64,000 bases of DNA from Daejeonella sp. JGW-45 (GTDB lineage Bacteria > Bacteroidota > Bacteroidia > Sphingobacteriales > Sphingobacteriaceae). The translations under genes and the position numbers were made by a program. Position 1 is the stretch's first letter. Each line of letters begins with the position of its first letter. Under the pieces are notes generated by a model. The model was not told the origin of the DNA. It saw only the letters and a list, made by a program, of their open reading frames with translations, and ran no database searches. The stretch is from contig NZ_JARKNC010000008.1 of NCBI RefSeq assembly GCF_029360805.1, forward strand, positions 62,001-126,000, written 5' to 3'. Shown here in pieces: positions 22,223 through 62,860 of the stretch.

Positions 22223-22281
22223 ATTAAATTCCATACCAAATGGCGAAGATATACCGCTTCGCCGCGATAATTTAGTTGCGG

Positions 22282-23706: not shown

Positions 23707-23739
23707 GTTATAATAAGTTTTCGGTTGATTTAAGTTTTT

Positions 23740-40294: not shown

Positions 40295-40369
40295 ATTTGA
40301 AATGTTTTTATTTGCAGCATTTAAATTAGGAATTATATCCATCAATTTGTCTGACGAGATTAAATTAAT

Positions 40370-44377: not shown

Positions 44378-44458
44378 GATAATAGTGTCAAAAATTAACA
44401 AATAATCTCAGGCATCGTTCCAACCAGAACTGTGCCTCTACTGGCATCGCGAAAAAGG

Positions 44459-46154: not shown

Positions 46155-49130
46155 TTATGCCCCTGCTTTCAGATACGCTATCAGTTTGGACATTTCATCT
46201 TTAGTGATAGCTTGCTCCAGCCCATCGGGCATGAGTGACAAACCTGAATTACTTAGAGAAGAAATATTTCTTCTAAGAATCGCTTCATCCGTTCCGAAGG
46301 TTGTGCGCAGAGTCAAACTATTTTCCGTTTCAGAAACCAACCACCCTGAAAACGAACGGCCGTCATTAGTTCGAACCGATATAGACTGGTAAGCCGGCAA
46401 AACCTCATAGTTTGGAACAAGTATATGCAGCAGCAGAGCATCAGCAGGCTGGTTCTTCACTCCAGTCAGATCCGGTCCGACTTTGCCCCCCTCATTTTTG
46501 TAAGTGTGGCATGCGGAACAAGCTTTCTGAAATACAGCTTTTCCCATTGGAGCATTGGCGGAAGTTGCGAGCGCATTTTTATATTCTTGATAAACCTTCA
46601 TCCGGTCGCCACCCTCAAGTTCCTTAAACAGGATTTTTGCCCTTTCACCTATCTCCGGATTCTTGTCGGACATTAAACGTACACGATCTGCTGAGGACAG
46701 CTCGGCTCCGGTGATGGCTCCCTTCTCGATCACAGCAAAAAGCTCATTAATAAATGCCGGTTTTGAAACCACGGCGGCTACCACAGCCGATTTGACACGG
46801 GGCGTGTATGCTGACCAGGCTTCCTTATTAAGCAGTATGGCCGCGCCGCGCGGGTCATTTAAGCGTGAAAATGCTGTTATAGCTTCTAATAGCAAATCCG
46901 GCGGGGTATTCGGAACGATCATTTTCTGAAGTGCAGCATGGCTTCGTTCAAAACTGGTATAGCCCAGCAAGGCTGTTGCTGATGTCCTCAGCCTGGTTTT
47001 TTCCGTCTGATCTCCGGCAATAGCGAGAACGTTGCCCAGAAACTTGTCCAGAGCCGCAACATCAGATGCCGGCACCGTACTTCCCTGTATTGCATATAAC
47101 AAGCCTTTTGGAGACGATCCGAATTCCTTCGACCTGCCACTAATTCCCTCCGCCAATCCAAGCATTGTAGCAATTCGCCACTCCGCTTCGCCGCTGGATG
47201 CTAATACTTCCTGTAAAAGTACACGGGCTTCCTCGGCTGAGCCACCGTTCCCAAACAAACGCCCGAGTTCTTTCATTACCGATGCGAACGCTACCGGCTC
47301 TGCATTTTGCTGTGCCCTGAAAGTAGTTAAGAACTCTGGCATGCGTTTGTCGATACCGCTTAAGATCGCAGCACGGAACCACTTGTCGGCTCCGTCTTTT
47401 GCCGCCAGTCTGGCAAGCGCCTGAACAGCCTGCGAGCCCTCCATAGAACCTAATACAAGCGCACTATTAAACCGAACGCGGATAGCCTCATCGCCCGAAG
47501 CGGCTATAACAGCTTGTGCAAGATTGGGATATTCCGGTAGTTTACTGCCGGCCAGTAATACTCCCTGCTCGCGCACACCAGATACCTTATCCGTCAAAAC
47601 CTTTTTTAGAGTAACTTCATCCAAAGACCCTAAGGAATTAAGCAGCCAGACCGCCCGAGCCCGGCTCTCAGGAAAAGCTGATTCAACAGCAATCTTTCTT
47701 GTAAGCGGGACTGCAGCTTTATCATTGCGTTCTAACAATAACCTGTGCGCAGTACTTCGTTCCCATTCCTCCGCAGACGACAGGTATTTAACCAGATCTG
47801 CTGTTGATGAAGCCGAACTGAGTCCGGTGTTACGATCATATTTCTTTTGAACGAAATCTTTCCGGACGACGCGATAGATCCTTCCATCTGTCTTCCCGCT
47901 CTCCCAGTCCAGCCCACCCCTGGCTTCTTCAGGCACATAAGCCGGATGATCGATTACTTTGCGGTGCATATCGGCTATGTAAAGTCCTCCTTCGGGGCCG
48001 TGTTGAACAGACACCGGGCGGAACCATTCGTCCGTCGACGACAAGAACTCTCTACCTTCATAAGCCGTCTTTGAGCTGAACGAGACTCCCTGCGGCTGTA
48101 CGATCTGACGTTGCACAAGATTTTGCGCTGATTCACAAATAAAAATATTACCCTGATGAGCAGGCGTAAGTCCGGTACCATTAAACACCATTAAACCACT
48201 AGCCGCAGTGAATGTCCCTGCATGTGAACGGCCAATCAACTTAGGGATAAAATCCGCGCTGGTAACCGATCTGCTCACTGGATAAACTACAGCCTCTGCT
48301 TCTACTTTGGAAACATTTTGTACAGTCTCATTAAAAAGAAGGTTGGCATTTCTGCGAAGATACCATGGCTCAATTACGGAATGCATAATCGGATGCCGGT
48401 TTGAGCAGCCAAAACGCCGTCCATAAGCGTCAAACGTCAAACCGAACTGGCTCTTTCCTCCTGTAACCTGAAACTCAAGGGTCTCCGGATTAAAACGTCC
48501 GTCTGTTTGTTTAAAAGCGACCGCAGGACGATCAGGATGCTCGGGGGAAGTTACATTTCCACCATTAAGTCCGGCAGTCACATAGATCCATCCATCCATA
48601 CCCAATGTAGGATGACTCATCCTGATCTGTGCAGTTTGCGTCGCAAAGAAACCGGTGAGCACCACCTTCTTGATATCTGCTATCCCATCACCATCCGTAT
48701 CCTTAAGGTAGTAAATATCCGGAGAGCACGTTACAAAAACCCCTCCTCTCCACGGCATTATTCCGTTAGGGTAAGTAAGACCTGTAGCGAAATCGCTTCG
48801 TTTGTCGTAAGTCCCGTCACCATTTGTATCCTTTAACAATGCGATGCGTCCAAGGGTCGTTGGTGACCCTCCCTCGGCAGGATCCGGATATCCCCGATCC
48901 TCAACGACATACATCTGACGGTCTTCATCAAATGCAATAGCAACTGGATCAATTACAAGGGGCTCCGCGGCAATAAGGTCAATTCGCATGCCCGGCTCCA
49001 CCTGAAAACTGTCCAGTGCCTTCTTTAATCTGACAGTGCGCGGATCAGGTTGTAAAGCAGCTATTGTAATTGCAAACACTATTAATAACAGGCCGAAAAA
49101 TCGATATCCTTTAAAGTTAAATCTATTCAT
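46155..49130 (-). CDS. PVC-type cytochrome c protein: dehydrogenase-like propeller, HEAT repeats, CxxCH domain
   Basis: A 991-residue paralogue of the protein at 41219-44377. The leader is FFGLLLIVFAITIAALQ. The propeller begins FQVEPGMRIDLIAAEPLVID and includes LKDTDGDGIADIKKVVLTGF and GPEGGLYIADMHRKVIDH. HEAT repeats fill about 440-820. The C-terminal cytochrome has CSACH (about residue 876), GPDLTGVK and a Met-containing LSLMPDGLEQAITKDEMSKL. The ATG at 49130 is chosen because the 17 upstream codons carry no leader. It is separated from the ceramidase-like gene by a 12-unit heptamer array. Redox partner and substrate are unknown, but the repeated pairing with glycan enzymes suggests sugar oxidation. 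Confidence 0.92.
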   Translation of the reverse strand: MNRFNFKGYRFFGLLLIVFAITIAALQPDPRTVRLKKALDSFQVEPGMRIDLIAAEPLVIDPVAIAFDEDRQMYVVEDRGYPDPAEGGSPTTLGRIALLKDTNGDGTYDKRSDFATGLTYPNGIMPWRGGVFVTCSPDIYYLKDTDGDGIADIKKVVLTGFFATQTAQIRMSHPTLGMDGWIYVTAGLNGGNVTSPEHPDRPAVAFKQTDGRFNPETLEFQVTGGKSQFGLTFDAYGRRFGCSNRHPIMHSVIEPWYLRRNANLLFNETVQNVSKVEAEAVVYPVSRSVTSADFIPKLIGRSHAGTFTAASGLMVFNGTGLTPAHQGNIFICESAQNLVQRQIVQPQGVSFSSKTAYEGREFLSSTDEWFRPVSVQHGPEGGLYIADMHRKVIDHPAYVPEEARGGLDWESGKTDGRIYRVVRKDFVQKKYDRNTGLSSASSTADLVKYLSSAEEWERSTAHRLLLERNDKAAVPLTRKIAVESAFPESRARAVWLLNSLGSLDEVTLKKVLTDKVSGVREQGVLLAGSKLPEYPNLAQAVIAASGDEAIRVRFNSALVLGSMEGSQAVQALARLAAKDGADKWFRAAILSGIDKRMPEFLTTFRAQQNAEPVAFASVMKELGRLFGNGGSAEEARVLLQEVLASSGEAEWRIATMLGLAEGISGRSKEFGSSPKGLLYAIQGSTVPASDVAALDKFLGNVLAIAGDQTEKTRLRTSATALLGYTSFERSHAALQKMIVPNTPPDLLLEAITAFSRLNDPRGAAILLNKEAWSAYTPRVKSAVVAAVVSKPAFINELFAVIEKGAITGAELSSADRVRLMSDKNPEIGERAKILFKELEGGDRMKVYQEYKNALATSANAPMGKAVFQKACSACHTYKNEGGKVGPDLTGVKNQPADALLLHILVPNYEVLPAYQSISVRTNDGRSFSGWLVSETENSLTLRTTFGTDEAILRRNISSLSNSGLSLMPDGLEQAITKDEMSKLIAYLKAGA

Positions 49131-49182
49131 AAAACTGTTGTATATTATTCTGAGATGCGAGATAAATTGCCCGTGAAACATC

Positions 49183-49290: not shown

Positions 49291-50754
49291 TTATTTATTT
49301 TGTTCATTTTTAAGTTTATTCAGCAATTCAAAAAGCACACTGCTTACTTTGGTGGAAGCATCCACCTCCAGGTAACTGGAGCGTGCACGCCAGGTTTCGT
49401 AACCTCCGAGCTTATGGTGCTCGGGAGTAGGCAAATAGCCATTGTAACCATTGGCCAGTGAAGTGGTAAAAGTTGGCTTAAAAGGACTTTTGGCCTTTAT
49501 GTCCAATCCGATTTCAACAAATATTTCGCAAGGCGCCGCCGTAACCGCCAGATCTCCTATACGAAAAGCCTGCAGGATCAACGGCACTTGTTTGGGAAAA
49601 TCCTTCATCAGCATAGTTTCCCGGGCATAGATTTCCTCCGCCGTATTCATTACCGGGCCTTTTGCTTTGGCGATGATTCCTTTTGCCCTTTCGATCTCTT
49701 CCTTTTCAGGGTGGCGTACCCCTAAATTAATCTCTGTTTGTGCAGAACTTAAAGAAACCCAATCCTGGTACCGGATAGTTTGATAGGTTTTATAAGCTTC
49801 GGCAGCCACAACATTAGCAACCTGACGCATTTTCTCGTATGGTGGCAAAACAGGCGGAGCTTCATTTGCAAACCAATTGATGTTATTAATATTGCCACTT
49901 GTTCCATTAGACAGCATTGCCACAAATGGCGGAAAACTCGTATTATCCGACTCCAGCAATGCTTTCATACGTTCTGCAAACATTCCAAAATAATCGGCTG
50001 AGATTTCACCGGAGCCTGTTCCACCTACATAGTGTAAGGAGTAGTTTGCAAGCAGGGCGATCGGTCTGCCTTCGGGAGTTTGTACTGAAATAATAGGTAG
50101 TTCCGGATCTGTCGGACCGGATGGTTCCAGACGATCCGGATTACCGACGCCCGGATTCATCTTTACCTGATCTACCCCACCGAAAGGATTCATTAATGGC
50201 TTACCGGGTTTCATTTTCCAACGGCGGTTAAATACCTGACTGGGCTCTTTTCCAACGGCCCAGCCGATACGGGCTGGAACGAGATTATTATTTGCCCGTA
50301 CAACCGCGTCGGCGATTCTCTCCCTGAGGAATTTCAGATATTCCGGATCCGGGTCACTTTGAAAGACCGAACAGGCAGTCCCGCCTGAATGCGTGTGAAT
50401 CGCGGACATCATCATGTTTTCTACAGGAATACCGGTTAATTCATGTGCCCTGCTTTTAGCTGCATCCAGTTCTTCCCTGTAAATCATACAAAGGTCGACA
50501 GTGAGCATGGCCAGTTTAGTCTGACCATCATCCAATACGATACATCTCGCATGAGTTTCATCGTGAATCTGTCTTACAATACCGTCTTTCATGTTACCGT
50601 TGATCGACGTCCCTATTTTAGGTGTAATATTACTCGTCGCAGCACCGGCCTTGAAAACCTTAGCCGGCTGAGCAAATCCATTCCGGGCGTTAAAGAACAA
50701 GTAACTAAAAAGTAAAACAGGAATACAGAGCGACAAAAAACGGGACCTGGACAT
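49291..50754 (-). CDS. Neutral ceramidase-like exported protein (N-terminal catalytic domain only)
   Basis: A 487-residue protein with a leader (FLSLCIPVLLFSYLFF); the ATG at 50754 is preferred because the 38 upstream codons lack one. It matches the neutral/alkaline ceramidase N-terminal domain: FKAGAATSNITPKIG, the zinc motif MMSAIHTHSGG, LANYSLHYVGG, APCEIFVEIGLDIK and NGYNGYLPTPEHHKLGGYE, so the zinc ligands appear kept. The amidase motif GDVSPN that holds the catalytic Ser of characterised ceramidases reads GNINNI here. The C-terminal domain of full ceramidases (650-700 residues) is absent. It probably hydrolyses something other than ceramide. It is one of four paralogues in this window. 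Confidence 0.88.
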   Translation of the reverse strand: MSRSRFLSLCIPVLLFSYLFFNARNGFAQPAKVFKAGAATSNITPKIGTSINGNMKDGIVRQIHDETHARCIVLDDGQTKLAMLTVDLCMIYREELDAAKSRAHELTGIPVENMMMSAIHTHSGGTACSVFQSDPDPEYLKFLRERIADAVVRANNNLVPARIGWAVGKEPSQVFNRRWKMKPGKPLMNPFGGVDQVKMNPGVGNPDRLEPSGPTDPELPIISVQTPEGRPIALLANYSLHYVGGTGSGEISADYFGMFAERMKALLESDNTSFPPFVAMLSNGTSGNINNINWFANEAPPVLPPYEKMRQVANVVAAEAYKTYQTIRYQDWVSLSSAQTEINLGVRHPEKEEIERAKGIIAKAKGPVMNTAEEIYARETMLMKDFPKQVPLILQAFRIGDLAVTAAPCEIFVEIGLDIKAKSPFKPTFTTSLANGYNGYLPTPEHHKLGGYETWRARSSYLEVDASTKVSSVLFELLNKLKNEQNK

Positions 50755-50900
50755 TGTGGCAAAAAAATGCGTTTGCACTCCCTCCCCCACAGGTATGTAA
50801 CCATCAGACCCGCAAGATATTTTGAAAATATTCGTTCGGCTTTTAAAACCTCCTATTGTCTTTTTCATCAGTACATAATTTGTTTTTTAGCGGTGATGAA

Positions 50901-50977
50901 GCCCGCCCGGCTGAACACCGTTCGGACGGGCTATCCTGAGCATATACATTATAGTTTGTGAGAGGCATGCTCAGGAT
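50901..50977. repeat. Interspersed palindromic repeat, related copy at 61429
   Basis: A 30-bp unit (50901-50930) starting GCCCGCCCGG and ending TTCGGACGGG matches 61429-61458 at 29 of 30 positions. Directly after it is an 11-bp perfect inverted repeat, ATCCTGAGCAT (50933-50943) and ATGCTCAGGAT (50967-50977). The element lies in the 352-bp gap between the sulfatase gene and the ceramidase-like gene; the rest of that gap holds nothing I recognise. Confidence 0.75.
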
Positions 50978-51106
50978 GGTTTCATTATAGATTAAGTTTC
51001 GTTTTACCGATAGTCAACACCTTAGTTTAAACTTGCGAAACCTTGTACTTTCACTCTTTTGTTAGCCGTAAGCTCATACAGGTTTCATTTCAATATTACT
51101 AAATTA

Positions 51107-52609
51107 TTATAGAACGACCGGAACAGGGTTATCAACCTTTCCCGGTGGTCTTTGATTTGCCCCCGGACGATCAGTATCTCCTAAATCTTCACGCCCCTTT
51201 TCCGCCAAGTCCATTAACCGGATGACAATTTCCGGATACTTTTCAGCTAAATTATAAGCCGAAGAAATATCTTCTTCAACATTGAATAATAGCGGCTTTT
51301 CACCCTCTCCTTTTTTGAAATGCGGATGTTGAACAAAACTCTTTAGCGGCACAAATAGCTTCCACGGACCAGATTTTACTGCTTGTAACTGATCTGCATT
51401 GTAATAATAAAATACCTTGTATGGTGATTTCGCTCCTTTCTTGCCTACAATTACTGACCGGTTATTATAACCATCGATGATCCGGTCATTTGGGATTTTA
51501 GCACCAGAAAGCGCAGCAAGGGTTGGTAAAACATCCATAGTGGTCACAAACTCAGTACACACTGTTCCACCTGGTATAGTTCCCGGCCACCACATAATGG
51601 CAGGAACCCGGAAAGCACCCTCTGCTGTAGTGTACCCCCTGCCAAACAACGGCTTATTCGTTCCGATTTCAATACTTGAACTATCCTCTGTCATTGGAGC
51701 ACCATTGTCGGATGTGAATATTAACAAGGTATTTCGGTCGATACCCAGCCGGACCAATTCTTTCATGATCTGCCCGATCGACCAATCCAACTCTTCAACA
51801 CTGTCTCCCCATAATCCACCATTGCTTTTCCCCCGAAAGGCATCACTGGAAAAAGGGGTCTTTGTACTTCCCGGCATTGCCTGTGGAAGATAAAGAAAAA
51901 AGGGTGATTCTTTATTCTCATTAATAAATTCCAGTGCCTTTTCTGTATATCTTTTGGTGAGTAAATTCCTGTCAACTCCGGCTTCAATTACTTTATTATT
52001 GAGCATTAATGGCAATGCAGGCCAACGATAGCCATCATAGCGATCTCCCAATCGCTGACCGACATCCTGGGTCATATCATCGCTGTAAGGAATACCGAAA
52101 AAATAATCAAAGCCCTGTGCAGGAGGTAAAAAAGGGGTTTGATCCCCCAGATGCCACTTCCCTATCAGGCCGGTTTTATACCCCTTACCCTTTAACACTT
52201 CAGCGACAGTAATCTCATTGGGATTAAGTCCATATGGCGAAATCGGGCGAATGACATAACCATCACGAGGATTCAGGTGCATGCCAACTCTTTGAGAGTA
52301 GCATCCCGTCATAATTGAAGCGCGGGAAGGGGTACAAACTCCCGCTGTCACATAAAAACTTGTAAATTTTCTGCCCTCTTTGACCATCTGATTCAGATTG
52401 GGCGTTCTGTTCACTTTGGAGCCAAATGGCTCAATATCCCCGTATCCCAGATTATCACAAAAAAAGATGATTACATTGGGTTGCTTTGCTTTGGATAATT
52501 TTAGATAAGAAGAAGTACTCCTAAGCATTTTTACCGGCCGTGGAAAAACCTGAACGCCTGCCAGCAAGCACAAACATGCGGAAAGAATAAATAACCTCAA
52601 TAATCTCAT
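51107..52609 (-). CDS. Exported arylsulfatase (Cys-type formylglycine sulfatase)
   Basis: A 500-residue S1-type sulfatase with a Sec leader (LFILSACLCLLAGVQVF). The active-site signature is VCTPSRASIMTG, with Cys92 to be converted to formylglycine by a maturase encoded elsewhere. Metal-site stretches are FFCDNLGYGD, where the second Asp of the usual DD pair is Asn, and LIFTSDNGAPM. GLIGKWHLGD is the conserved mid-domain motif. It removes sulfate esters from a glycan or glycolipid in the periplasm. It lies 69 bp downstream of a ceramidase-like gene and upstream of another, so the substrate of this series probably carries sulfate. Confidence 0.95.
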   Translation of the reverse strand: MRLLRLFILSACLCLLAGVQVFPRPVKMLRSTSSYLKLSKAKQPNVIIFFCDNLGYGDIEPFGSKVNRTPNLNQMVKEGRKFTSFYVTAGVCTPSRASIMTGCYSQRVGMHLNPRDGYVIRPISPYGLNPNEITVAEVLKGKGYKTGLIGKWHLGDQTPFLPPAQGFDYFFGIPYSDDMTQDVGQRLGDRYDGYRWPALPLMLNNKVIEAGVDRNLLTKRYTEKALEFINENKESPFFLYLPQAMPGSTKTPFSSDAFRGKSNGGLWGDSVEELDWSIGQIMKELVRLGIDRNTLLIFTSDNGAPMTEDSSSIEIGTNKPLFGRGYTTAEGAFRVPAIMWWPGTIPGGTVCTEFVTTMDVLPTLAALSGAKIPNDRIIDGYNNRSVIVGKKGAKSPYKVFYYYNADQLQAVKSGPWKLFVPLKSFVQHPHFKKGEGEKPLLFNVEEDISSAYNLAEKYPEIVIRLMDLAEKGREDLGDTDRPGANQRPPGKVDNPVPVVL

Positions 52610-52678
52610 ATTAAAACTTCAAATAAACAATAAGAAATTTGACAGATATCGAATTCACGGACATCATCAATTATCGGC

Positions 52679-54205
52679 TTACTTCAATTCAGGTGGCAAG
52701 TTGCCGTAAGCCCATGGCGCTTTGAAAGGAGGTGCGGGAGGAGGCAGGGGAACTTTACCGGGTGTCATTTGATTTGCCAGTTCTATGCCCGTATCAGCGA
52801 ACTGCCTTCCGGCTGAAACTTCCAGGTTACTGTAAGAAGTCAGCCTTGTTTCATATCCTCCTCCATTAGGCCCCAATGCCTCTTCAGTTGGAACGTATCC
52901 GGTAATACCGTTAGCCAGTTCCACAACAAAGGTAAAGGGGAATTTACTGCCGGCCTTTATATCCAGACCATATTGAACAAAATACTCTGCGGGATTAGAA
53001 ACAAATACGACGGGGCCTACCTGGATGGTCTGAACTTCGACCTCCACTAAAGGCCGTGCCTTGATGATCGCATCAAGCAACAACGTTTCCTTCGCAAAGG
53101 TCCATTCTGTGGTACCCGATTTTTCAGGTCCGGCTTTGACAAGTTCCAGCGCGTTTTTAACTTTTTCAGGCGTCGGTATACGGCGCTTAACGGTCCATAC
53201 TTTTTGTCTGGAGTCTAATGGGATCTCGCTTCCGGCTCCGCGGCGAATTAAGAGAAGAGTTTTATAAGCCTCGGCCCCAACACGGCCTCCCACGATATCC
53301 CACCATTCTTCTGCGGCAGGATTTTGAAATTTCGTCAGGTTATCGACCTGTGTGATATCTCCACAGGCGCCTTGCATAAATACTACAGGCAATGCCGCAT
53401 TTCCCGTAGCACCCCGGATAGTGCGTTCCATAGATCCGATCCAACTGGCCGAAATACCTCCCGGACTGGTAGTAGCATGGCATGAAAAATTCACTACGGT
53501 GCCCAGTAAATTACCTTTTAAATCCCATACGCCAATAGTTCCAACCTGTGGATCGATTGGGCCCGCATAATCTATGATATCAGGATTTCCTGCTCCAGGA
53601 TGAGAATAACTCAGCCCATTCTTCATCCGTAAACGACGGTTGAACGATACTTTGTCCTCGTGGCCGTTCCCAACAGCCAGCTTTGCATCTACGCGATTCT
53701 CATATGCAAATACGACCGCGTCTACGATCTGCTTTTTCAGAAGCTGAGTATAGCCAGGATTGGACACAATTGAATGATTATTTACCAGGTCTTTGACCAG
53801 GGGCGAGGCTTTATCGAAATCCCCTGGTTCTCCCATGCCAATCGGGCCCGATGAATGCGAATGCGAAGCGCCGATCATAACTGCCTCGGGCCGGATACCA
53901 CAACGCTTTTGAATCTCGGCACGAACCTCTTGTACCAAATGTCTGGTTACAAAAAGAAGGTCGATACCCACGAGCGCCACAGGCTTCTGCCCGTCATCGA
54001 AGACAACTGCTCTAACTTTACACGGGTCGTGGAAGCTTTTATGATGCGACTTTCCGTAATTTCCAGGCGATTCCATACCTATGTCCGGTGTAATATCCTT
54101 CTCGGCAAAACCCGCCTTAAAAACAGATGCAGGTTTTGGACCTCCTGCCGACACTGCCGACAATGCCAGTAAACATAATATGAGTAGTGGTAGAACTTTC
54201 TTCAT
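52679..54205 (-). CDS. Neutral ceramidase-like exported protein, divergent paralogue
   Basis: A 508-residue protein with a Sec leader (LPLLILCLLALSAVSAG). Ceramidase N-terminal domain features: FKAGFAEKDITPDIGM, IGASHSHSSGPIGMG (zinc motif HSHS), VVNFSCHATTSPGG, FVSNPAEYFVQYGLDIKA and NGITGYVPTEEALGPNGGGY. The serine-bearing GDVSPN motif of true ceramidases reads GDITQV, leaving a Thr where the Ser would be. A Pro-rich tail follows (PLPPPAPPFKAP). Its start overlaps the stop of the upstream paralogue in a TAATG, showing translational coupling. It is the most divergent of the four paralogues. The substrate is unknown; ceramide is not assured. Confidence 0.88.
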   Translation of the reverse strand: MKKVLPLLILCLLALSAVSAGGPKPASVFKAGFAEKDITPDIGMESPGNYGKSHHKSFHDPCKVRAVVFDDGQKPVALVGIDLLFVTRHLVQEVRAEIQKRCGIRPEAVMIGASHSHSSGPIGMGEPGDFDKASPLVKDLVNNHSIVSNPGYTQLLKKQIVDAVVFAYENRVDAKLAVGNGHEDKVSFNRRLRMKNGLSYSHPGAGNPDIIDYAGPIDPQVGTIGVWDLKGNLLGTVVNFSCHATTSPGGISASWIGSMERTIRGATGNAALPVVFMQGACGDITQVDNLTKFQNPAAEEWWDIVGGRVGAEAYKTLLLIRRGAGSEIPLDSRQKVWTVKRRIPTPEKVKNALELVKAGPEKSGTTEWTFAKETLLLDAIIKARPLVEVEVQTIQVGPVVFVSNPAEYFVQYGLDIKAGSKFPFTFVVELANGITGYVPTEEALGPNGGGYETRLTSYSNLEVSAGRQFADTGIELANQMTPGKVPLPPPAPPFKAPWAYGNLPPELK

Positions 54206-55680
54206 TACTTTATTTGATTGAAAAGATTTAAGATTTCAGCGACTATTTTTCTGGATGCCTCAGTTTCCACCTTGTTTGTTCCAAGCCAGGTCTCGTACCC
54301 TCCAACCTTGTGTTGCTCCGGAGTAGGCAGATACCCATAGGATCCATTTGCTATTGAAATGGTAAAGGACGGTTTGAACGGACTACGAGCTTTTATATCA
54401 AGACCGATCTCGGTAAAGACTTCAAAAGGGATAGCTGCTACGCCCAGGTCGCCAATGCGAAAAGCTTGCATCACCGCATTGATATTTGCTGGCCAGCCAT
54501 TTAGCTGCATGGTCCGTTCTGCATAAGTCTTTTCCAGATTATGTACCGGCTTTTCCGTGTCTGGCTTAGCCAAGACTTTCTGTGCATAAGCGAGCATCTC
54601 AGGTGTCGGCTTACGTACCTTCAAATTAAGTTCTGATTGTGCGGCACGAAGCCGAACCCAATTTTTGTATTGGATCGTCTGATAGACCCGTAAAACTTCC
54701 GTGGCCACATCGTTCGCCACAATACGCATTTTAGCATACGGTTCGTGCTTTTCGGCAGGCCCGCGGAAATTGATATTATTTACATCTCCGGATGTTCCGT
54801 TCGACATAATACCCACAAACGGTGGATCCTGCCGGTCGGCTTTAAGCAGTTCCTGTATACGATCAGCAAAAACTGCGAAGTAATCGGCAGAAATATGGTC
54901 TCTTGGTACTCCCCCTACATAATGCAAAGAATAATTAGCTAGCAGGCCAATCGGGCGCCCTTTAAGAGATTGTACCGAAATGAACGAAACCTGCGGATCT
55001 GTAGGGCCGGCTGGCTCCACCAAATCAGGATTGCCGACTCCCGGATTCATCCGAACCTGATCCATCCCGCCGAAAGGATTTACAACCGGGGATTTCATCT
55101 TCCACCGGCGGTTAAAAAGATGCTGCGGTACATTCCCGGCACCCCAACCAATACGAGCGGGTTCCAGGTTGTTAACTGCAACACGTACGCCGTCTGCAAT
55201 GCGGCGAATTAAAAAGCGCTGGTACTCATCGAAAGTTTTGCCTTGATGAGCGTTTCCTCTTAGTGCACCTATGCCGCTGGCGCTGCTGGCCGAATGCGTA
55301 TGATCGGACGAAATAAGCACTTGTGCTGGCGGAATCTTTGTTTCCTCAAAGATCAGGCGCTTTGCCTCATCGAGCACTTCACGAATCACACCAACGTTGT
55401 CGATAACAACAAAAACCAGTTTTGTTGTCCCGTCATCTAAAACAAGGCTGCGCGCATGCAATTCGTCATGCACATAGTTTGCGGGAGGCGGCACACCAAA
55501 ATTACCCACTAAGCCTGAGCCCAAAGGCGGAGTAATATTTGCAGTAGATGCCCCAGCTTTAAAAACGGCGTTTTGAGCATACAAATTCGAGGCAAAAGAG
55601 AGTGTCAGTACTATAGTCAAGATCGGCATTAACAGCTTGCACGATTTCTCAACATACAGAATCCTGGTCATTTTTTTCAT
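54205..55680 (-). CDS. Neutral ceramidase-like exported protein
   Basis: A 491-residue paralogue with a leader (LLMPILTIVLTLSFASNLYA). Visible ceramidase domain motifs: FKAGASTANITPPLGSG, SSDHTHSASSASGIG (zinc His), LANYSLHYVGGVPRDHISAD, AIPFEVFTEIGLDIKARS and NGSYGYLPTPEQHKVGGYE. The amidase motif is changed to GDVNNI, so the catalytic Ser is replaced by Asn. It is closest to the neighbour at 55889, suggesting a recent duplication. Its stop overlaps the start of the next gene (TAATG), and a tiny frame ends inside its start codon region. Enzymatic role unknown. Confidence 0.88.
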   Translation of the reverse strand: MKKMTRILYVEKSCKLLMPILTIVLTLSFASNLYAQNAVFKAGASTANITPPLGSGLVGNFGVPPPANYVHDELHARSLVLDDGTTKLVFVVIDNVGVIREVLDEAKRLIFEETKIPPAQVLISSDHTHSASSASGIGALRGNAHQGKTFDEYQRFLIRRIADGVRVAVNNLEPARIGWGAGNVPQHLFNRRWKMKSPVVNPFGGMDQVRMNPGVGNPDLVEPAGPTDPQVSFISVQSLKGRPIGLLANYSLHYVGGVPRDHISADYFAVFADRIQELLKADRQDPPFVGIMSNGTSGDVNNINFRGPAEKHEPYAKMRIVANDVATEVLRVYQTIQYKNWVRLRAAQSELNLKVRKPTPEMLAYAQKVLAKPDTEKPVHNLEKTYAERTMQLNGWPANINAVMQAFRIGDLGVAAIPFEVFTEIGLDIKARSPFKPSFTISIANGSYGYLPTPEQHKVGGYETWLGTNKVETEASRKIVAEILNLFNQIK

Positions 55681-55880
55681 ACTGATTCGTCATTTAGTCC
55701 ATTTAAATTATAAGAAACCTTATTGAGTAATATTGATATCCAGAGCAGGAGGATAAATGAAATTAAAACGCTTGTTTCAACCAAATCTACCTTCCAGGGC
55801 ACACACAAACCAATACTTATTTCGCCAATACCAATACTATATTCTGTCCGGCTGAACGTTAAGGTCGTGTAGAGTACCAA
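55677..55880 (-). CDS. Possible small membrane protein or gene fragment between two ceramidase-like genes
   Basis: A frame of 67 codons with a TTG start 8 bp after the stop of the upstream gene and an ATGA overlap with the next gene. It contains one strong hydrophobic span (VLISFILLLWISILL) preceded by IGIGEISIGLCVPW, which distantly recalls MauE/DoxX-type membrane proteins. There is no in-frame ATG. The tight packing argues for a real or once-real gene, the poor start against it. It may be a remnant. Confidence 0.3.
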   Translation of the reverse strand: MVLYTTLTFSRTEYSIGIGEISIGLCVPWKVDLVETSVLISFILLLWISILLNKVSYNLNGLNDESV

Positions 55881-55888
55881 AAAGCCAT

Positions 55889-57379
55889 CTATTTAATCTG
55901 GCCAAAAAGTTTGAGGATCTCTCTCACTATTTCCCGTGATGCTCCTTTTTCTACTTTATTTACACTCAACCAGGTTTCGTATCCGCCCAACTCATGTTGT
56001 TCAGGCGTAGGCAGGTACCCATAGCCACCATTGGCTAGCCCTATTGTAAACGATTTCTTAAATGGACTTCGGGCTTTGATCTCTAAGCCTGTTTCAGCAA
56101 ATACCTCGAAAGGAATTGCAGCAATTCCTAATTCTCCTATTTTGAGGGTTTGGAGAATTACGTCTATTTTCTCAGGCCATTCTTTCATCTGTATTGCCCT
56201 CTCGGCGAAGATCTTCTCCATGGGATGGTCAGTCTTTGCCTTCAACATAATGTTCTCAGCCCAGGCTAGCGTTGGTCCGTCCGGCTTCCGTACATTGAGG
56301 GTAAGTTCAGTTTGAGCAGCGCCGAGTGGTACCCAGTTTTTATATTCTATAGTTTGATATATTTTAAATACTTCTTCTGCTACGTCATTAGCAACTATTT
56401 TCATTTTAGCATATGGCGGATAGCTTGGAGATGCTCCCCGAAAGTCTATATTATTTACATCCCCTTCAGTACCATTTGACATGATGCCTACAAACTTAGG
56501 TTCCAGGCGATCGGCCTGCGCCAGCTGCTGAAGCCGGTCGGCGAATAAGGCAAAATAATCCGCGGAAATATGCCCCTTGGGAACCCCTCCCACATAATGC
56601 AACGAATAATTGGCGAACACCGCTATCGGACGACCCTTAACTGACTGAACTGAAAAGAATGAAACCTGCGGATCGGTAGGACCAGCGGGTGTCAATATAT
56701 TAGGGTTTCCGATTCCTGGGTTCATCTGCACTGCTTCACTTACCCCAAAGGGGTTGGTTACCGGTGATTTCAATTTCCAACGGCGGTTGAAAACATGCTG
56801 AGGAACTTGTCCTGTTCCCCAGCCTATCCGGGCTGGCTCCAGGTTGTTCAATGCGATCCTCACCCCATCTGCCATACGTCGGACAACAAATCGCTGATAA
56901 GCATCCAGAGGCTTAGGATAGTTTCCACGGGTGTTATCCCGAATGCTGAGAGCAGGTTCGGGTGGATCGATCTCATGCCCTGCCCAGGTAGACGAATGGG
57001 TGTGGGTTGATGACATAAGGATCTGTTCTTTGAGAATTCCGGTTTCTTCCGAAATCAGTCTCTTTGCCTCGTCAAAAACCTCCCGTGGGAGTTCAACATT
57101 ATCAACTACCACCAAAGCCAGTTTTATTTTTCCGTCATCCAATACAAGGCTCCTGCTGTGCAGTTCATCATGTATATGAGTCGCTAATGGTAAAGGCATC
57201 CAGCCACCTGCAATTCCCTGGCCCAGATCCGGGCTAATGTTTGCCATGGACGCACCTGCACGAAATACTTCACTTTGTCCGTAGATGATAGATGTTCCGG
57301 TAAACAGCAGTATTCCAATATGAAACATCTTTTTGACGCCAACTTTCATGGCTTGCTTTGCGATAGCGATTTTTTTCAT
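55889..57379 (-). CDS. Neutral ceramidase-like exported protein
   Basis: A 496-residue paralogue with a leader (MFHIGILLFTGTSIIYG). Motifs: FRAGASMANISPDLGQG, MSSTHTHSSTWAGHE (zinc His), FANYSLHYVGGVPKGHISAD, AIPFEVFAETGLEIKARS and NGGYGYLPTPEQHELGGYE. The catalytic-Ser motif reads GDVNNI, as in the downstream paralogue, so the Ser is Asn. It is the first gene of the minus-strand series of three ceramidase-like genes and the sulfatase gene. The 150 bp between it and lutC probably holds its promoter. The conserved zinc site and altered nucleophile suggest a different hydrolase reaction. Confidence 0.88.
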   Translation of the reverse strand: MKKIAIAKQAMKVGVKKMFHIGILLFTGTSIIYGQSEVFRAGASMANISPDLGQGIAGGWMPLPLATHIHDELHSRSLVLDDGKIKLALVVVDNVELPREVFDEAKRLISEETGILKEQILMSSTHTHSSTWAGHEIDPPEPALSIRDNTRGNYPKPLDAYQRFVVRRMADGVRIALNNLEPARIGWGTGQVPQHVFNRRWKLKSPVTNPFGVSEAVQMNPGIGNPNILTPAGPTDPQVSFFSVQSVKGRPIAVFANYSLHYVGGVPKGHISADYFALFADRLQQLAQADRLEPKFVGIMSNGTEGDVNNIDFRGASPSYPPYAKMKIVANDVAEEVFKIYQTIEYKNWVPLGAAQTELTLNVRKPDGPTLAWAENIMLKAKTDHPMEKIFAERAIQMKEWPEKIDVILQTLKIGELGIAAIPFEVFAETGLEIKARSPFKKSFTIGLANGGYGYLPTPEQHELGGYETWLSVNKVEKGASREIVREILKLFGQIK

Positions 57380-57529: not shown

Positions 57530-58105
57530 TTAGATTACATATACACGCAAACTTCGGGCACCATGGGCTCCGATCACAAGATTTTGTTCAATATCAGCTG
57601 TTTTTGACGGGCCAGCTATAAAAACTCCGAAACCATTGTGCCCTGTTTTGATCTGCTGGTAGGCTTGGTGCATGTTATCAACAATATCTGCCGGATCCAA
57701 CACGATCACAAGATGCTGACATATAAAGGGAAGAAGGCGGTTGGACATCTGTTCTTCCGAAATCCACATGGCGCCATTTTCAGCGACACCGAGCTGTGCC
57801 CGAATGTAGCAAGTATCCAACCCTTTCAATTCAGACGCCGTCAGCTCCTCCCACTCTTGCCTCTCATCCTTTTCCAGAAGATTGATCATAAAATCACCCT
57901 GCTGTTTCACAGAGTCGATATCAGTCACAAGTAAATTCCCGCTATTTTCAAAAAACGTATCAGCTCCCGAGGCTTTCAGTACGTTCATAAATTGTTCTAC
58001 CAAATTACTGTAGCGAACTGCCTGCGAAAGGTCCATTTCCGGCAGCTCGATCAGATCGGGCTTATTTGCGGTTACCGCCTGTAAAATTTTTTCTCTGGCT
58101 TCCAT
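57530..58105 (-). CDS. lutC: Lactate utilisation protein C (LUD domain)
   Basis: A 191-residue LUD-domain protein of the LutC/YkgG type. Recognisable stretches are MEAREKILQAVTANKPDLIE at the N-terminus, FFENSGNLLVTDID, ARAQLGVAENGAMWISEE-like region (actual reading AQLGVAENGAMWIS) and GFGVFIAGPSKTADIEQNLV followed by GAHGARSLRVYVI at the C-terminus. LutC is one of three proteins that together oxidise L-lactate to pyruvate. It starts immediately after the lutB stop, so it is the last gene of the lutABC group. Confidence 0.92.
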   Translation of the reverse strand: MEAREKILQAVTANKPDLIELPEMDLSQAVRYSNLVEQFMNVLKASGADTFFENSGNLLVTDIDSVKQQGDFMINLLEKDERQEWEELTASELKGLDTCYIRAQLGVAENGAMWISEEQMSNRLLPFICQHLVIVLDPADIVDNMHQAYQQIKTGHNGFGVFIAGPSKTADIEQNLVIGAHGARSLRVYVI

Positions 58106-59470
58106 TTATTGATTCACTTTAAACCAGTCCCTGAAGCTTAGCTCCGGTGCTTTGGGCATTTCCCGTTGCTTATACCAAACATTAAGAGGATGGTTTATTA
58201 TAAAAGGAAACGTTCGCATAACCCAGCGCCCGATCTTTCCGGAAATCCGGTAAATACGGGGATTTGAAAGGATCCAGGCCGCACCGTGCATTCCAGCTTT
58301 CTTAGCCTTCCCGACATAGCCGTTAGCTACTACGACCTGGCGCCATTTCCAAAGCTGATCATGAATATCTATTTTCACCGGACATACATTGCTGCAGGAT
58401 CCGCAAAGAGTAGAAGCAAACGGCAGGTCTGAATTGGCCTTCATATCGAGATTCGGATTTAGAATCGAACCTATCGGACCTGCTACCGTCGAATGATAAC
58501 TATGCCCACCACTCCTTCTGTATACGGGACATGTATTGAAACAAGCTGCACAACGGATGCACTTCAGCGAATTCCTGAAGTCGGCCCGACCAAGCTGCCT
58601 GCTCCTTCCGTTATCGACAATAACAATATGCATCTGCTGTCCGGGACGGGGCTTATAAAAATGGCTGGAATATGTTGTTATAGGTTGTCCGGTTGCACTT
58701 CTTGCCAAAAGACGAAGAAATACACCAAGGTGCTCAGTTTTGGGGATCAGTTTCTCAATACCCATACAGGCGACATGAATATTTGCAGAATGCACACCCA
58801 TGTCGGCATTGCCCTCATTGGTACAAACAACAAAGCTTCCTGATTCAGCAACGGCAAAATTAACGCCGGTAATAGCAAGGTCTGCTTCAATAAAACGCTC
58901 GCGTAAATGATGCCGGGCCGATGCTGCGAGATATTGCGGATCGTAATTTCCTTTTTCTGTGTTCAGGTGCTCGTGAAAGGTTTCACTTACATCCTGGCGC
59001 TTCAGGTGAATAGCCGGTAGAACGATATGACTGGGCGCTTCCTTTCTCAACTGTACGATGTATTCGCCCAGGTCGGTGTCCAATGTATTTATTCCACGAT
59101 CTTTTAAATATTCATTTAAATGGCATTCTTCTGTAAGCATGCTTTTGCTCTTCACAATTTTACAGACCTTGTTATCGGCAATAATTTTGTAAATGATCCT
59201 GTTGTGCTCTTCGGCATCGGAAGCCCAGTGAATTTTTATACCGTTTGCAATGGCGTTATTCTCAAAGCTCTTAAGGTAGTGGTCAAGATTGGAGAGCGTA
59301 TGATTTTTTATTCGGGATGCCCAATCGCGTAGCAGCTCCCATTCGGGCAAGGTATGAACGGATTTGTCTCGCTTCTGCCTGACAAACCAAAGCGTTTCAT
59401 CATGCCAGTCGGTACGCGGTTCGTCACGGATGAATTCCTGAGCAGCTTCAGCATGCGTTTTTATGCTCAT
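58106..59470 (-). CDS. lutB: Lactate utilisation protein B, iron-sulfur protein
   Basis: A 454-residue protein. The N-terminal part is a LUD domain (VNFAVAESGSFVVCTNEGNA), and the C-terminal part holds two 4Fe-4S motifs, CIRCAACFNTCP (about residue 303) and CGSCSNVCP (about 357). LutB is the iron-sulfur component of the LutABC L-lactate oxidising system in the cytoplasm. Its start overlaps the lutA stop by four bases (ATGA) and its stop abuts lutC, the standard tight arrangement. Length and motifs are normal, so function is likely intact. Confidence 0.94.
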   Translation of the reverse strand: MSIKTHAEAAQEFIRDEPRTDWHDETLWFVRQKRDKSVHTLPEWELLRDWASRIKNHTLSNLDHYLKSFENNAIANGIKIHWASDAEEHNRIIYKIIADNKVCKIVKSKSMLTEECHLNEYLKDRGINTLDTDLGEYIVQLRKEAPSHIVLPAIHLKRQDVSETFHEHLNTEKGNYDPQYLAASARHHLRERFIEADLAITGVNFAVAESGSFVVCTNEGNADMGVHSANIHVACMGIEKLIPKTEHLGVFLRLLARSATGQPITTYSSHFYKPRPGQQMHIVIVDNGRSRQLGRADFRNSLKCIRCAACFNTCPVYRRSGGHSYHSTVAGPIGSILNPNLDMKANSDLPFASTLCGSCSNVCPVKIDIHDQLWKWRQVVVANGYVGKAKKAGMHGAAWILSNPRIYRISGKIGRWVMRTFPFIINHPLNVWYKQREMPKAPELSFRDWFKVNQ

Positions 59471-60204
59471 AAATTACTATTCAAAATTTCAGCCAGGTGA
59501 ATGGCTTTTACGCCGCTCCCCTGCCTTTTTAAAATCCCCTCAAGATGCATCAGGCAACTCGTATCACCACCAGTAATGAATTCGACATCATTGCGTAAGT
59601 GCTCCTGAATCCTGTCTTTACCCATTTTGACACTCACTGCTTCTTCAAACACACAAAATGTTCCTCCGAACCCACAGCATTCGTCTACTCTCGCGGGCTT
59701 CAGCAGCTCCAGGCCATCAACCATATTCAGTAGCTGCTCCGGTTTCGAAAACCCGGGATCGACAAGCTCGCTCATTGACGACAGGTGTAAACCTCGTTGC
59801 CCGTGACAGCTAATATGCATTCCCACCCGGTGTGGAAAAGAAGCTTTCAGCCGGGTGACTTTGAGAATGTCGATCAAAAATTCAGTAAGCTCATATACAC
59901 TATTGCGGATCCTGTCAATTTCAGCTGGGCTGGCGCCCTCATTTAAATGTTCCCTGACATGCAGGACGCAACTTCCCGAGGGTGCTACAATATAATCAAA
60001 CCCACTGAAATTGTTTACGAAATTTTTATCGCAGGCTTTGGAGAGGCCCGAAAATCCACTGTTAGCCATGGGTTGGCCACAGCAGGTCTGATCCATCGGA
60101 AAGCCCACATCGCAACCCAATTTTTTGAGCAGTTCATACGTAGCAATAGCGACACCAGGATAGAACTGGTCTATATAGCATGGAACAAACAAACCTACTT
60201 TCAT
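59467..60204 (-). CDS. lutA: Lactate utilisation protein A, CCG-domain iron-sulfur oxidoreductase
   Basis: A 245-residue protein with two CCG domains, typical of LutA/YkgE and heterodisulfide-reductase-like subunits. The first shows KVGLFVPCYIDQFYPGVA and DQTCCGQPMANSGF; the second shows GMHISCHGQRGLHL and DECCGFGGTFCVFEE. These Cys motifs bind iron-sulfur clusters. With LutB and LutC it oxidises L-lactate to pyruvate. It begins 28 bp after the stop of the PfkB kinase gene, so the lut genes seem to be part of a longer sugar operon rather than a separate lactate regulon. Confidence 0.94.
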   Translation of the reverse strand: MKVGLFVPCYIDQFYPGVAIATYELLKKLGCDVGFPMDQTCCGQPMANSGFSGLSKACDKNFVNNFSGFDYIVAPSGSCVLHVREHLNEGASPAEIDRIRNSVYELTEFLIDILKVTRLKASFPHRVGMHISCHGQRGLHLSSMSELVDPGFSKPEQLLNMVDGLELLKPARVDECCGFGGTFCVFEEAVSVKMGKDRIQEHLRNDVEFITGGDTSCLMHLEGILKRQGSGVKAIHLAEILNSNL

Positions 60205-60232: not shown

Positions 60233-61309
60233 TTATTCTTTGTTAAATCCGGAAAGCTCGCCCAGCTTCAGGCATTCCTGCCACGAAACAATGCTTTCGG
60301 AAGAACTCGCATCCATTAGGCTGGCCGCTGCAACACTTACTCCCAGCAACAGGCTTTGATCCATCGTCCAATTTTCGTGCACCCCGGCTAAAACCCCGGC
60401 AGCAAAAGCATCGCCGGCACCAACCGTCCCTTTTACCTCTTCACACGGCACATTGACACAGGGCTGATACAATTTCTCACCCCTTTTATTCAGAGCAATT
60501 GCGCCTTTGGGAAAATGAATTATTACCCAATCCTGTACGCCCATCTCTAAGATATCATTTGCTGCCTGATATGCGCGCGCCCGGGAACATTCACCCTGTT
60601 CATTACAGATCTCTACACCGGTAAGCATGTTTGCCTCGAATTCATTCACGAACAAGATATCAATAAATTGTAAGGACAACGGAATGATACTCCGAAATCT
60701 TTCAGATTGCTCACTAACAAGATCTGCCGACGTAATCATGCCGGCCTGCTGCGCAGATCTCAACACTTTGGCAGCACCGGTAAACCCATCTTCACCTATA
60801 ATATCAAGTTTGTCGAGCAGCAGTAAATAACCTAAATGAAATATCTTAGCCTCCGATCCTGAAAAATCAAAATAAGATTCATCTAAAAAAGCATTCGCTC
60901 CCCTGGAATGAAAAAAGGTACGTCTGCCTGTTCCCTGAACTGTCATTACATCTGTATAAGATGTATTGGTGTGTTCTACCTTCCTAATCCGGCCAGAGTC
61001 AATTCGGAGCTCGCGGCACTCCTTTAAAATAAAGTCTCCCCTGCTATCATTTCCGATAGCCCCAATTCCCTTAAGCGGGAACCGAAAGCCCATCTTACTC
61101 AAGGCTTTTAAAACGTTATATGGAGCTCCCCCATTACTGGTACTTTCCCTCAGGATATTCGCCAGTTTTTCTTCTTTTGGGTAAACGTCAACGAGCTTCA
61201 CATTATCAATGATCCAGTTGCCGCCAGCCAAAATCCCGGTTCCGGTATTTTCTTTCATATCGAATGCATTACCTTTCAGCAAGGTTTTAATAGCAAATTG
61301 TTTTTCCAT
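60233..61309 (-). CDS. PfkB family carbohydrate kinase
   Basis: A 358-residue ribokinase/PfkB-type sugar kinase. The N-terminal region reads GILAGGNWIIDNVKLVDVYP, the substrate lid region SNGGAPYNVLKALSKMGFRF, and the C-terminal signature GTVGAGDAFAAGVLAGVHEN has the catalytic Asp (about residue 302) in the GAGDAF anion hole. It phosphorylates a sugar or sugar acid in the cytoplasm. It precedes lutA by 28 bp and follows a Gfo/Idh gene and a class I aldolase gene, suggesting a pathway oxidise, phosphorylate, cleave. An internal ATG at codon 18 is an alternative start. The substrate is unknown. Confidence 0.9.
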   Translation of the reverse strand: MEKQFAIKTLLKGNAFDMKENTGTGILAGGNWIIDNVKLVDVYPKEEKLANILRESTSNGGAPYNVLKALSKMGFRFPLKGIGAIGNDSRGDFILKECRELRIDSGRIRKVEHTNTSYTDVMTVQGTGRRTFFHSRGANAFLDESYFDFSGSEAKIFHLGYLLLLDKLDIIGEDGFTGAAKVLRSAQQAGMITSADLVSEQSERFRSIIPLSLQFIDILFVNEFEANMLTGVEICNEQGECSRARAYQAANDILEMGVQDWVIIHFPKGAIALNKRGEKLYQPCVNVPCEEVKGTVGAGDAFAAGVLAGVHENWTMDQSLLLGVSVAAASLMDASSSESIVSWQECLKLGELSGFNKE

Positions 61310-61667: not shown

Positions 61668-62792
61668 TCATACCAAATCCACAACAGATTTAGTTTCGTG
61701 AGATTTTAAAGCTGCGTCAAACAATCGGTGACTCATTAAAGCCTCTTCAGGTGTCACACAGCCGAAGCGGCCATTTAACAGTCCTTCCCGCTCTGCGAAA
61801 TAAGCTGCCAGCATCTGGAAAAAACAGTCAGAGAAGCCCGGTTCAAATATTGAGCCGGTGTTGGTTGGAAAAGGTACCTGGAACCCGAGATCAACTCGTT
61901 GCCACAGCTGCTCCTTTTCGCGCTTAAAAGTCCATAATGCTTTTGTATCCTTCGTATTATATCTTACGCCGCCCTCAGTTCCAAGAATTTCAATATACCA
62001 TGAGTTAGTTTCGCCCGGTTTCAAACGCTTCATTTCAAGTGACATGGGGATGTCATTACCTTCTATTTTTACGGAAGCAGAAAGTGTTGCATTATTCCAT
62101 GTATCCCCTTCGGCCCATCCGCCTTTTCCATCCGGTCTTTTAGTTATTATCTTTTGCAGGTGAGCATATACCTTGTCAGGTTTCCACCCCAGTCTAAGTG
62201 GAATATGCATCACATGCATGCCGAGGTCGCCCATTACGCCTATCTCACCACAAAACTTCGATTGTCTTTTCCAGTTAATAGGTTTGAGCGGATCCATATC
62301 ACTGGAGTGGCAGAACCCTGCGTTTATCTCAATGATCTCCCCAATTTTTCCTGATATTACTTCATTGATAACCCTCTGAGGACCGGGTAAAAAAGGCATT
62401 TCTGAACAACATCTTACAAAACAGCCGGACCCGGAAATTGCCTCGTTGATGTTTTTTGCAGCATTAAGGTCTACCCCGAATGGCTTCTCGGCCAGGAGAT
62501 CCTTTCCTGATTTAATCACCTCTATATAATACTGTTCGTGAAGAAAATGAGGAAGAGCTACATAAACCACATCTACTTTCGAAGATGCAAGCAGCTCTTT
62601 ATAATCCGTAGTTAATAATTCCACCGATTGTATTTGCTCATACCATTTCAGGGCGTTTGCATCCAGGTCGCATACCGCTTTTAATTCAACTTTAACCGGG
62701 TAGTCGTTCAGAGAGAACCACCGTCCAAATGCGGAGGCTACTTCCTTACCCATTAAACCACCACCAATGATGCCTACATTTACGACTTTCAT
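61668..62792 (-). CDS. Cytosolic Gfo/Idh/MocA family oxidoreductase
   Basis: A 374-residue NAD(P)-dependent sugar oxidoreductase. The start at 62792 is chosen because NVGIIGGGLMGKEVASAFGR, the Rossmann motif, then lies at the N-terminus; the longer frame adds 20 unlikely residues. Further motifs: DVVYVALPHFLHEQYYIEVI, catalytic Lys in LLAEKPFGVDLN, and FCGEIGVMGDLGMHVMHIPL with the conserved Asp and His. There is no leader, so it works in the cytoplasm. It lies 68 bp after the aldolase gene and, across the repeat cluster, before the kinase gene. It probably performs the first or a middle redox step of a sugar pathway. Confidence 0.92.
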   Translation of the reverse strand: MKVVNVGIIGGGLMGKEVASAFGRWFSLNDYPVKVELKAVCDLDANALKWYEQIQSVELLTTDYKELLASSKVDVVYVALPHFLHEQYYIEVIKSGKDLLAEKPFGVDLNAAKNINEAISGSGCFVRCCSEMPFLPGPQRVINEVISGKIGEIIEINAGFCHSSDMDPLKPINWKRQSKFCGEIGVMGDLGMHVMHIPLRLGWKPDKVYAHLQKIITKRPDGKGGWAEGDTWNNATLSASVKIEGNDIPMSLEMKRLKPGETNSWYIEILGTEGGVRYNTKDTKALWTFKREKEQLWQRVDLGFQVPFPTNTGSIFEPGFSDCFFQMLAAYFAEREGLLNGRFGCVTPEEALMSHRLFDAALKSHETKSVVDLV

Positions 62793-62860
62793 TCTTATAT
62801 ATATTTTTTTAATAAAAATGAAGTCCGTCGGGAAAACCCAGCGGACTTGCATAATTGTTC

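Follow-up and report, generated by a model that had tools for sequence, protein, structure and literature searches.

The window analysed here is a 64,000-nucleotide stretch of Daejeonella sp. JGW-45 (contig NZ_JARKNC010000008.1, positions 62,001 to 126,000 of the forward strand), whose nearest matches are Daejeonella and Pedobacter records. It carries an array of four genes, cer1 to cer4, for short proteins that resemble the catalytic domain of neutral ceramidase. An earlier note on this DNA had described them as an expanded set of paralogues that lost the nucleophilic serine of ceramidases and act in another reaction, and had suggested structure prediction and a family tree as checks. The four genes and a sulfatase gene, which the note had correctly placed beside them, are as follows:

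49291..50868, minus strand: cer1, 525-residue open reading frame; predicted ceramidase-like zinc hydrolase, motif GNINNI (PF04734, 33.6 bits; within the 44-row clade of the tree below)
51107..52609, minus strand: sulfatase, between cer2 and cer1 (PF00884, E 1.2e-51)
52679..54205, minus strand: cer2, 508 residues; distant ceramidase-like protein, motif GDITQV (PF04734, 24.9 bits, below cut-off; placed by model and Foldseek)
54205..55680, minus strand: cer3, 491 residues; predicted ceramidase-like zinc hydrolase, motif GDVNNI (PF04734, 48.2 bits; model and Foldseek)
55889..57379, minus strand: cer4, 496 residues; predicted ceramidase-like zinc hydrolase, motif GDVNNI (PF04734, 33.4 bits; within the 44-row clade)

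The stop codon of cer3 overlaps the start codon of cer2 by one base (TAATG), so these two genes are probably co-translated. The paralogues are not close to one another (30–63% identity of cer1, cer2, and cer4 to cer3). Judged by eye, each protein starts with a signal-peptide-like hydrophobic stretch, and that of cer1 seems to begin at Met39 of the open reading frame, which is probably the true start. Orthologous arrays in four other loci (L036, L040, L041, and L047) carry a fifth paralogue of about 490 residues (motif GNINHV) between cer2 and the sulfatase or cer1, as does L092, where the array is cut at the locus end; this paralogue is not in the window, where the gap between cer2 and the sulfatase is 69 bp.

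To what family do these proteins belong? The only Pfam family found in cer1 to cer4 is PF04734, whose gathering cut-off (32.1 bits) is reached by cer1, cer3, and cer4 and missed by cer2. A PDB search with the single sequence of cer3 gave only noise, and a profile was required: a profile of 44 relatives matched two solved neutral ceramidases (2zws, E 1.4e-43; 4wgk, E 2.2e-32), and its sole other match at E<1 was a decarboxylase (E 0.095). AlphaFold models of two of the four proteins (mean predicted local distance difference test score 90.8 for cer3 and 84.6 for cer2) matched the neutral ceramidases 2zws, 2zxc, and 4wgk in Foldseek at E 3.1e-28 to 4.0e-24, with 2zws the best match of both (cer3, E 3.1e-28; cer2, E 2.2e-26) and the next unrelated matches at E 2.4e-4 (cer3) and 1.4e-3 (cer2). 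The root-mean-square deviation over the whole alignment was large (6.5–8.4), so the match is one of fold and not of fine geometry. On its model, cer2 does belong to PF04734 by fold, not by score. The claim of four ceramidase-like proteins is thus borne out, for the 44-row clade by the profile and for cer2 and cer3 by structure prediction.

The likeness stops short of neutral ceramidase proper (Enzyme Commission 3.5.1.23). As the note had observed, there is no C-terminal domain: of the 646 residues in the chain of the Pseudomonas aeruginosa enzyme (PaCD), the profile match extends no further than residue 491. Against the NCBIfam neutral-ceramidase equivalog NF041649, cer4 scored 17.9 bits for a cut-off of 1200, and cer1, cer2, and cer3 gave no match at E 0.001. 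Because cer1 to cer4 lack the serine motif, the C-terminal domain, and an equivalog score, we conclude that they are members of the wide PF04734 family but not neutral ceramidases proper.

We next consider the residue at the serine position. The profile alignment pairs the family motif GDiNn with GNLSPN of PaCD and GDVSPN of the human enzyme, and the residue at the position of human Ser354 is Asn in cer1 (GNI-N-NI), Thr in cer2 (GDI-T-QV), and Asn in cer3 and cer4 (GDV-N-NI); the reading of all four motifs as serine-free was therefore right. Neutral ceramidases use a zinc-bound water, and the equivalents of human H194, H303, E540, and Y579, which we take to be the zinc ligands, are present in all four proteins, consistent with the zinc motifs, second histidine, and late Glu and Tyr picked out before. 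More fully, human H194, H196, R257, H303, E540, Y579, and Y591 align with H, H, R, H, E, Y, and Y of the family (H127, H129, R191, H253, E420, Y450, and Y462 of cer3), and by this alignment the catalytic residues are kept in cer1 to cer4 themselves. Across 191 aligned rows (154 plus 37, with some genes appearing twice), H127 and H129 are kept in all 191, R191 and H253 in 182 each, E420 in 176, Y450 in 187, and Y462 in 179 (92–100%). The Ser354 column of the same rows holds Asn in 142, Thr in 21, Ser in 8, and other residues or gaps in 20; in the first 154 rows only, the counts are 128 Asn, 19 Thr, 4 Ser, and 3 others. Of the eight Ser rows, four belong to a short clade in which the aligned position has no third His, two are a single full-length enzyme (GDVSGN) entered twice, and the remaining two come from a GSHS group. 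Among the short relatives, which come from five phyla or more, Asn is the usual residue at this position, and Ser is rare. In addition, 171 of the 191 rows have Arg at the position of human Ser258, a second, family-specific Arg directly after the R257 equivalent. In cer3 the residues at the Ser354 and Ser258 positions are Asn301 and Arg192. A figure of 100% Asn in a core of 102 rows was discarded as circular, these rows having been chosen by a motif that contains the Asn, and the tree clade described below was used instead.

Two side observations concern this position. The short clade represented by L058, L061, and L109 has motifs of the GDQSP, GDQTP, or GDITP type; it retains HxH, whereas the third His is absent from the aligned position, so that Ser or Thr is present while one zinc ligand has apparently changed. 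L111, a long ceramidase-like protein (754 residues) from another genome of the phylum (G101), has Glu at the Ser position (GDVEPN).

The serine had been taken for the nucleophile. The available passages of a review of the human structure (PMC6952831) instead have Ser354 stabilising Arg257, list other residues as catalytic, and also refer to Ser354 as a previously identified active-site residue. On that account Ser354 is not the nucleophile, and, by analogy, Asn could fill the same supporting role. Since the catalytic residues listed in the review are all kept in the four proteins, the change from Ser to Asn is by itself weak evidence for another reaction. Of the proposal of a zinc hydrolase subfamily with a different reaction, what stands is an uncharacterised subfamily that probably has another substrate. 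The review also notes that the human enzyme can be inhibited by added zinc.

To place the four paralogues, we built a tree of 81 rows from 178 candidates, thinned at 72% identity except for rows of the window and its own genome; the method was quick, and the tree has several long branches and is unrooted. We found cer1, cer3, and cer4 in a clade of 44 rows (Shimodaira–Hasegawa-like approximate likelihood ratio support 100), of which 43 have Asn and 1 has Gly at the Ser position, and cer2 in a distant group with Thr. Within the clade, cer1 lies in one branch (17 rows, support 88), and cer3 and cer4 lie in another (22 rows, support 84). An approximately unbiased test rejected all four as one clade (p 9e-49) and likewise cer1, cer3, and cer4 as one clade (p 9e-77, for a trio picked after the tree was seen). 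By record title (many of the records being metagenome-assembled genomes), Verrucomicrobia and Acidobacteria are found alongside Bacteroidetes in both branches, and Planctomycetia, Hydrogenedentota, and Kiritimatiellae in one branch or the other. Because both branches hold records of several phyla, an ancient divergence of the copies, or their spread by transfer, is probable. With both constrained trees rejected, a recent local expansion is not supported. Nor is the description of the serine as lost, given the predominance of Asn in the column, and the tree, being unrooted, does not tell whether Ser was lost or gained.

The array genes are under purifying selection where this can be measured. 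The ratio of nonsynonymous to synonymous substitution (dN/dS) was 0.026–0.092 in 12 of 27 comparisons with best-matching relatives in seven loci, values that are rough at a dS of 0.9–3.7; dS was saturated in the other 15. This selection bears on whether the proteins might be pseudoenzymes or sugar-binding proteins whose catalysis went with the serine. Such a reading would fit the replacement in all four of a residue earlier called active-site, but both the selection and the retention of the zinc ligands and proposed catalytic residues speak against it, and we consider it very improbable.

A scan of GTDB genomes showed how widely the family is spread: a relative is encoded in 107 of 120 candidate stretches, and only the best 80 were retained, which biases the sample towards close relatives. 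The counts below refer to 75 loci (76 when the window is included, less L106, which lost its gene to an overlap filter), some of which share contigs or are orthologous and are therefore not independent. One family member is present in 38 of the 75 and four to six in 14. The family profile (E 1e-10) matched 19 of 296 genomes of the phylum, the match in two of these (G101 and G294) being a long enzyme of 746–754 residues. No match was found in the sole other genome of the genus or in six others of the family within this sample; the trait is therefore patchy. The window's own genome has at least six further members outside the window (in L031–L034), none with Ser at the position. These six short proteins are of the same family by profile but differ from the array in their motifs (GADQNP, GADQNA, GGDANP, and GADANP, which form one clade, and GDAKVG and GNITAG) and, in the tree, are well separated from the array genes. 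One ceramidase-like gene of this genome (L033:6362-8559) directly adjoins a DUF1080 gene.

Could the proteins simply be short ceramidases that can do without Ser and act on ceramides or on N-acyl sphingoid-like lipids, whether from the bacterium itself or from neighbouring organisms? The ceramidase fold and full catalytic set favour this view, and many Sphingobacteriaceae make sphingolipids. Moreover, no canonical neutral ceramidase was found at E 1e-20 in any of the 29 carrier genomes searched (those behind 29 of the 75 loci) that could do this job; the same query did give matches among the 296 genomes of the phylum (two at 1e-20, neither above its cut-off). Against it stand the missing C-terminal domain, the presence in 14 of 75 loci of at least four diverged copies, and the sugar-catabolism context described below, including fusion to DUF1080. 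It is further weakened by the mention of Ser354 as a previously identified active-site residue (in the available part of PMC6952831) and by the statement, in the accessible part of a paper on a plant enzyme, that the hexapeptide is crucial for activity (PMC5874051). Weighing these, we think ceramide-type substrates improbable.

The array lies within a run of non-overlapping genes that are all on one strand, from an aldolase at 63700 down to a Gfo/Idh gene at 37518:

37518..38801, minus strand: Gfo/Idh/MocA oxidoreductase (PF19051, PF01408)
38936..40345, minus strand: double DUF1080 protein (PF06439, two stretches, E 2.1e-85)
40370..41194, minus strand: DUF1080 / 3-keto-disaccharide hydrolase domain protein (PF06439, E 3.8e-31)
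41219..44401, minus strand: second DUF7133, HEAT, and cytochrome c protein (PF23500, E 1.1e-41)
44459..46045, minus strand: N,N-dimethylformamidase beta-like (DMFA-like) protein (PF20254, E 6.7e-85)
46155..49181, minus strand: DUF7133, HEAT, and cytochrome c protein (PF23500, E 2.3e-120)
57530..60204, minus strand: LutC-, LutB-, and LutA-like genes for lactate oxidation (PF02589; TIGR00273, 427.3 bits, just under the cut-off of 444.8; PF02754)
60233..61309, minus strand: PfkB sugar kinase (PF00294, E 1.7e-34)
61668..62852, minus strand: Gfo/Idh/MocA oxidoreductase (PF01408, E 5.6e-16)
62861..63700, minus strand: DeoC/LacD-type aldolase (PF01791, E 6.8e-30; nearest solved relatives MJ0400 and LsrF)

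Just outside the window follow Gfo/Idh, a GDSL-DUF7133 protein, a NagB-like protein, a PIG-L deacetylase, and two more Gfo/Idh genes, and further an FGE-domain protein, SusD, SusC, and a pyrroloquinoline quinone (PQQ) dehydrogenase. The GDSL-DUF7133 protein (L142:1346-4471, on G000:C9 just upstream of the window) joins GDSL lipase/acylhydrolase, DUF7133, and cupredoxin-like domains and has close relatives in L037, L039, L042, and L082. The cluster thus brings DUF1080 together with sugar-dehydrogenase candidates (two DUF1080, two DUF7133, and two Gfo/Idh genes). The nearest solved relatives are YdjH for the kinase and an NAD-binding oxidoreductase and inositol-type dehydrogenases for Gfo/Idh; for kinase, aldolase, and Gfo/Idh, these nearest solved relatives name no pathway, and the DUF1080 protein has weak PDB matches only (E 0.007).

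Part of this context recurs. DUF7133 occurs in 36 of the 75 loci, in 29 of them as the immediate neighbour on the same strand; 19 loci have SusD, 15 a sulfatase, 9 the kinase, and 5 LutB. DUF1080 is present in 19 loci, 7 of them as a fusion to the ceramidase-like protein, and without the overlap filter a separate DUF1080 gene appears in 13. The fusions carry DUF1080 at the C terminus of 7 of 162 relatives (759–763 residues, one checked in Pfam) and lie in L053, L054, L056 (for example L056:11488-13773), L082, L083, L084, and L093. As a background, the 4.1 Mb genome of the window has 12 matched stretches each for DUF7133 and DUF1080. Elsewhere, two 3-hydroxyacyl-CoA-dehydrogenase-like genes around a class-III aminotransferase recur near the family (L046, L065, L083, and L084), and the window holds a second sugar-oxidation group at 20684-24846 (glucose/sorbosone dehydrogenase with cytochrome c, GH109-type Gfo/Idh, and amidohydrolase).

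The Lut genes raise the prospect that the substrates are muropeptides or other lactyl sugars, with lactate released for the adjoining LutABC-like genes. These genes are directly upstream in the window and in near relatives, but the rarity of LutB among the loci and the poor fit of sulfatase and DUF1080 with peptidoglycan make this highly unlikely.

Clues to the substrate come from DUF1080 and from NagB. The passages available from one study (PMC9007349) place two hydrolases in DUF1080, one for 3-ketotrehalose that has been characterised and one for 3'-ketolactose that was proposed from fitness data. We searched for the NagB-like gene in 21 genomes (the window's own and 20 of the 29 carriers) and found a match (1e-10) in 9, with a close copy (E below 1e-100) in 8; in 6 of these 8 the distance to a family member (found at E 1e-60) is 8.6–13.7 kb. 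In the window's own genome the PIG-L deacetylase gene adjoins the NagB-like gene. These neighbours make an amino sugar a lead as substrate.

Together, fold, conserved residues, and context suggest a model that we put at an even chance: cer1 to cer4 may be secreted (periplasmic), active zinc acyl hydrolases that use the neutral-ceramidase catalytic domain to deacylate a sugar-like substrate, not ceramide. We infer activity, mechanism, substrate, and order of steps as follows. The zinc ligands would be the residues matching human H194, H303, E540, and Y579, and the zinc-bound water would attack the acyl carbonyl with the aid of those matching H196, R257, and Y591; where Ser354 stands in the human enzyme, Asn (or Thr) would help to position Arg257, next to the second Arg at human position 258. 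SusCD would import the substrate, a sugar-like compound; an N-acyl amino sugar or an acylated glycoside is the likeliest candidate, perhaps an N-acyl amino-sugar glycoside. The acyl group would be removed before or beside oxidation to a keto sugar (DUF7133, Gfo/Idh) and DUF1080 cleavage, and the products would pass to the kinase, aldolase, and Lut enzymes.

Several points weigh against this model. DUF1080 also occurs in an endo-xanthanase/lichenase (in the passages available from PMC9007349), and a separate DUF1080 gene stands directly next door in only 1 of the 75 loci. The NagB-like gene is absent at E 1e-10 from 12 of the 21 genomes, is on another contig in 2 of the 8 with a close copy (G304 and G309), and in the ninth genome is a weak, unlinked match; it resembles glucosamine-6-phosphate deaminase only distantly (E 9e-05 in the PDB and 5e-07 in NCBIfam) and falls in no Pfam family. 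At E 1e-15, none of the other loci yielded a match to the PIG-L gene. Many loci outside Bacteroidota have neither SusCD nor DUF1080 nor the kinase set, and one pathway may not fit all. Amide and ester substrates are not distinguishable from sequence.

This last point leads to the closest competitor, in which an ester, a lactone, or the 3-keto-glycoside itself is cut rather than an amide, the zinc site being kept while the bond differs. The DUF1080 fusion, the frequent DUF7133 neighbour, the nearby DMFA-, GDSL-, and sulfatase-type hydrolases, and a pocket base altered by the second Arg and Asn all speak for it, whereas the only convincing solved relatives are amidases and nitrogen-bearing sugars are hinted at by the genes for NagB-like and PIG-L proteins nearby. 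We judge it unlikely, though to be taken seriously. Returning to deacylation of a sugar-like substrate, a broader version is tentative and somewhat doubtful: Asn-type short "ceramidases" might form a large undescribed class of periplasmic zinc deacylases for oxidised (3-keto) or amino-sugar glycosides, a standard step of DUF7133-DUF1080 glycan breakdown in Bacteroidota and other phyla.

It is easy to call short PF04734 proteins ceramidases by transferring the family name. If our model is true, that label is misleading, and oxidative glycan breakdown would include an uncharacterised deacylation step that can now be tested; the Asn- and Thr-type array proteins also offer a natural test of the role of Ser354. 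No description of short ceramidase-like enzymes in sugar clusters was found by title or opening among the open-licence papers listed, which is weak evidence of absence. A fish-pathogen paper with neutral ceramidase and SusD (PMC5561996) was set aside, as the part seen concerns a canonical-type ceramidase and not the array family.

Among known systems, the 3-keto-glycoside pathways with DUF1080 hydrolases (BT2157; Caulobacter CCNA_01705; PMC9007349) likewise cluster DUF1080 and dehydrogenase genes but, in the passages available, mention no ceramidase-like enzyme. The P. aeruginosa neutral ceramidase (2zws, 2zxc) shares with the array proteins the fold of its catalytic N-terminal domain and the equivalents of H97, H99, R160, and H204, whereas the array proteins have Asn or Thr at the Ser of GNLSPN and a second Arg after the R160 equivalent, lack the C-terminal domain of about 150 residues, and occur as tandem copies in sugar clusters. 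From human ASAH2 (4wgk) they differ in having Asn or Thr for S354, Arg for S258, and no C-terminal domain, but they keep the equivalents of H194, H196, R257, H303, E540, Y579, and Y591.

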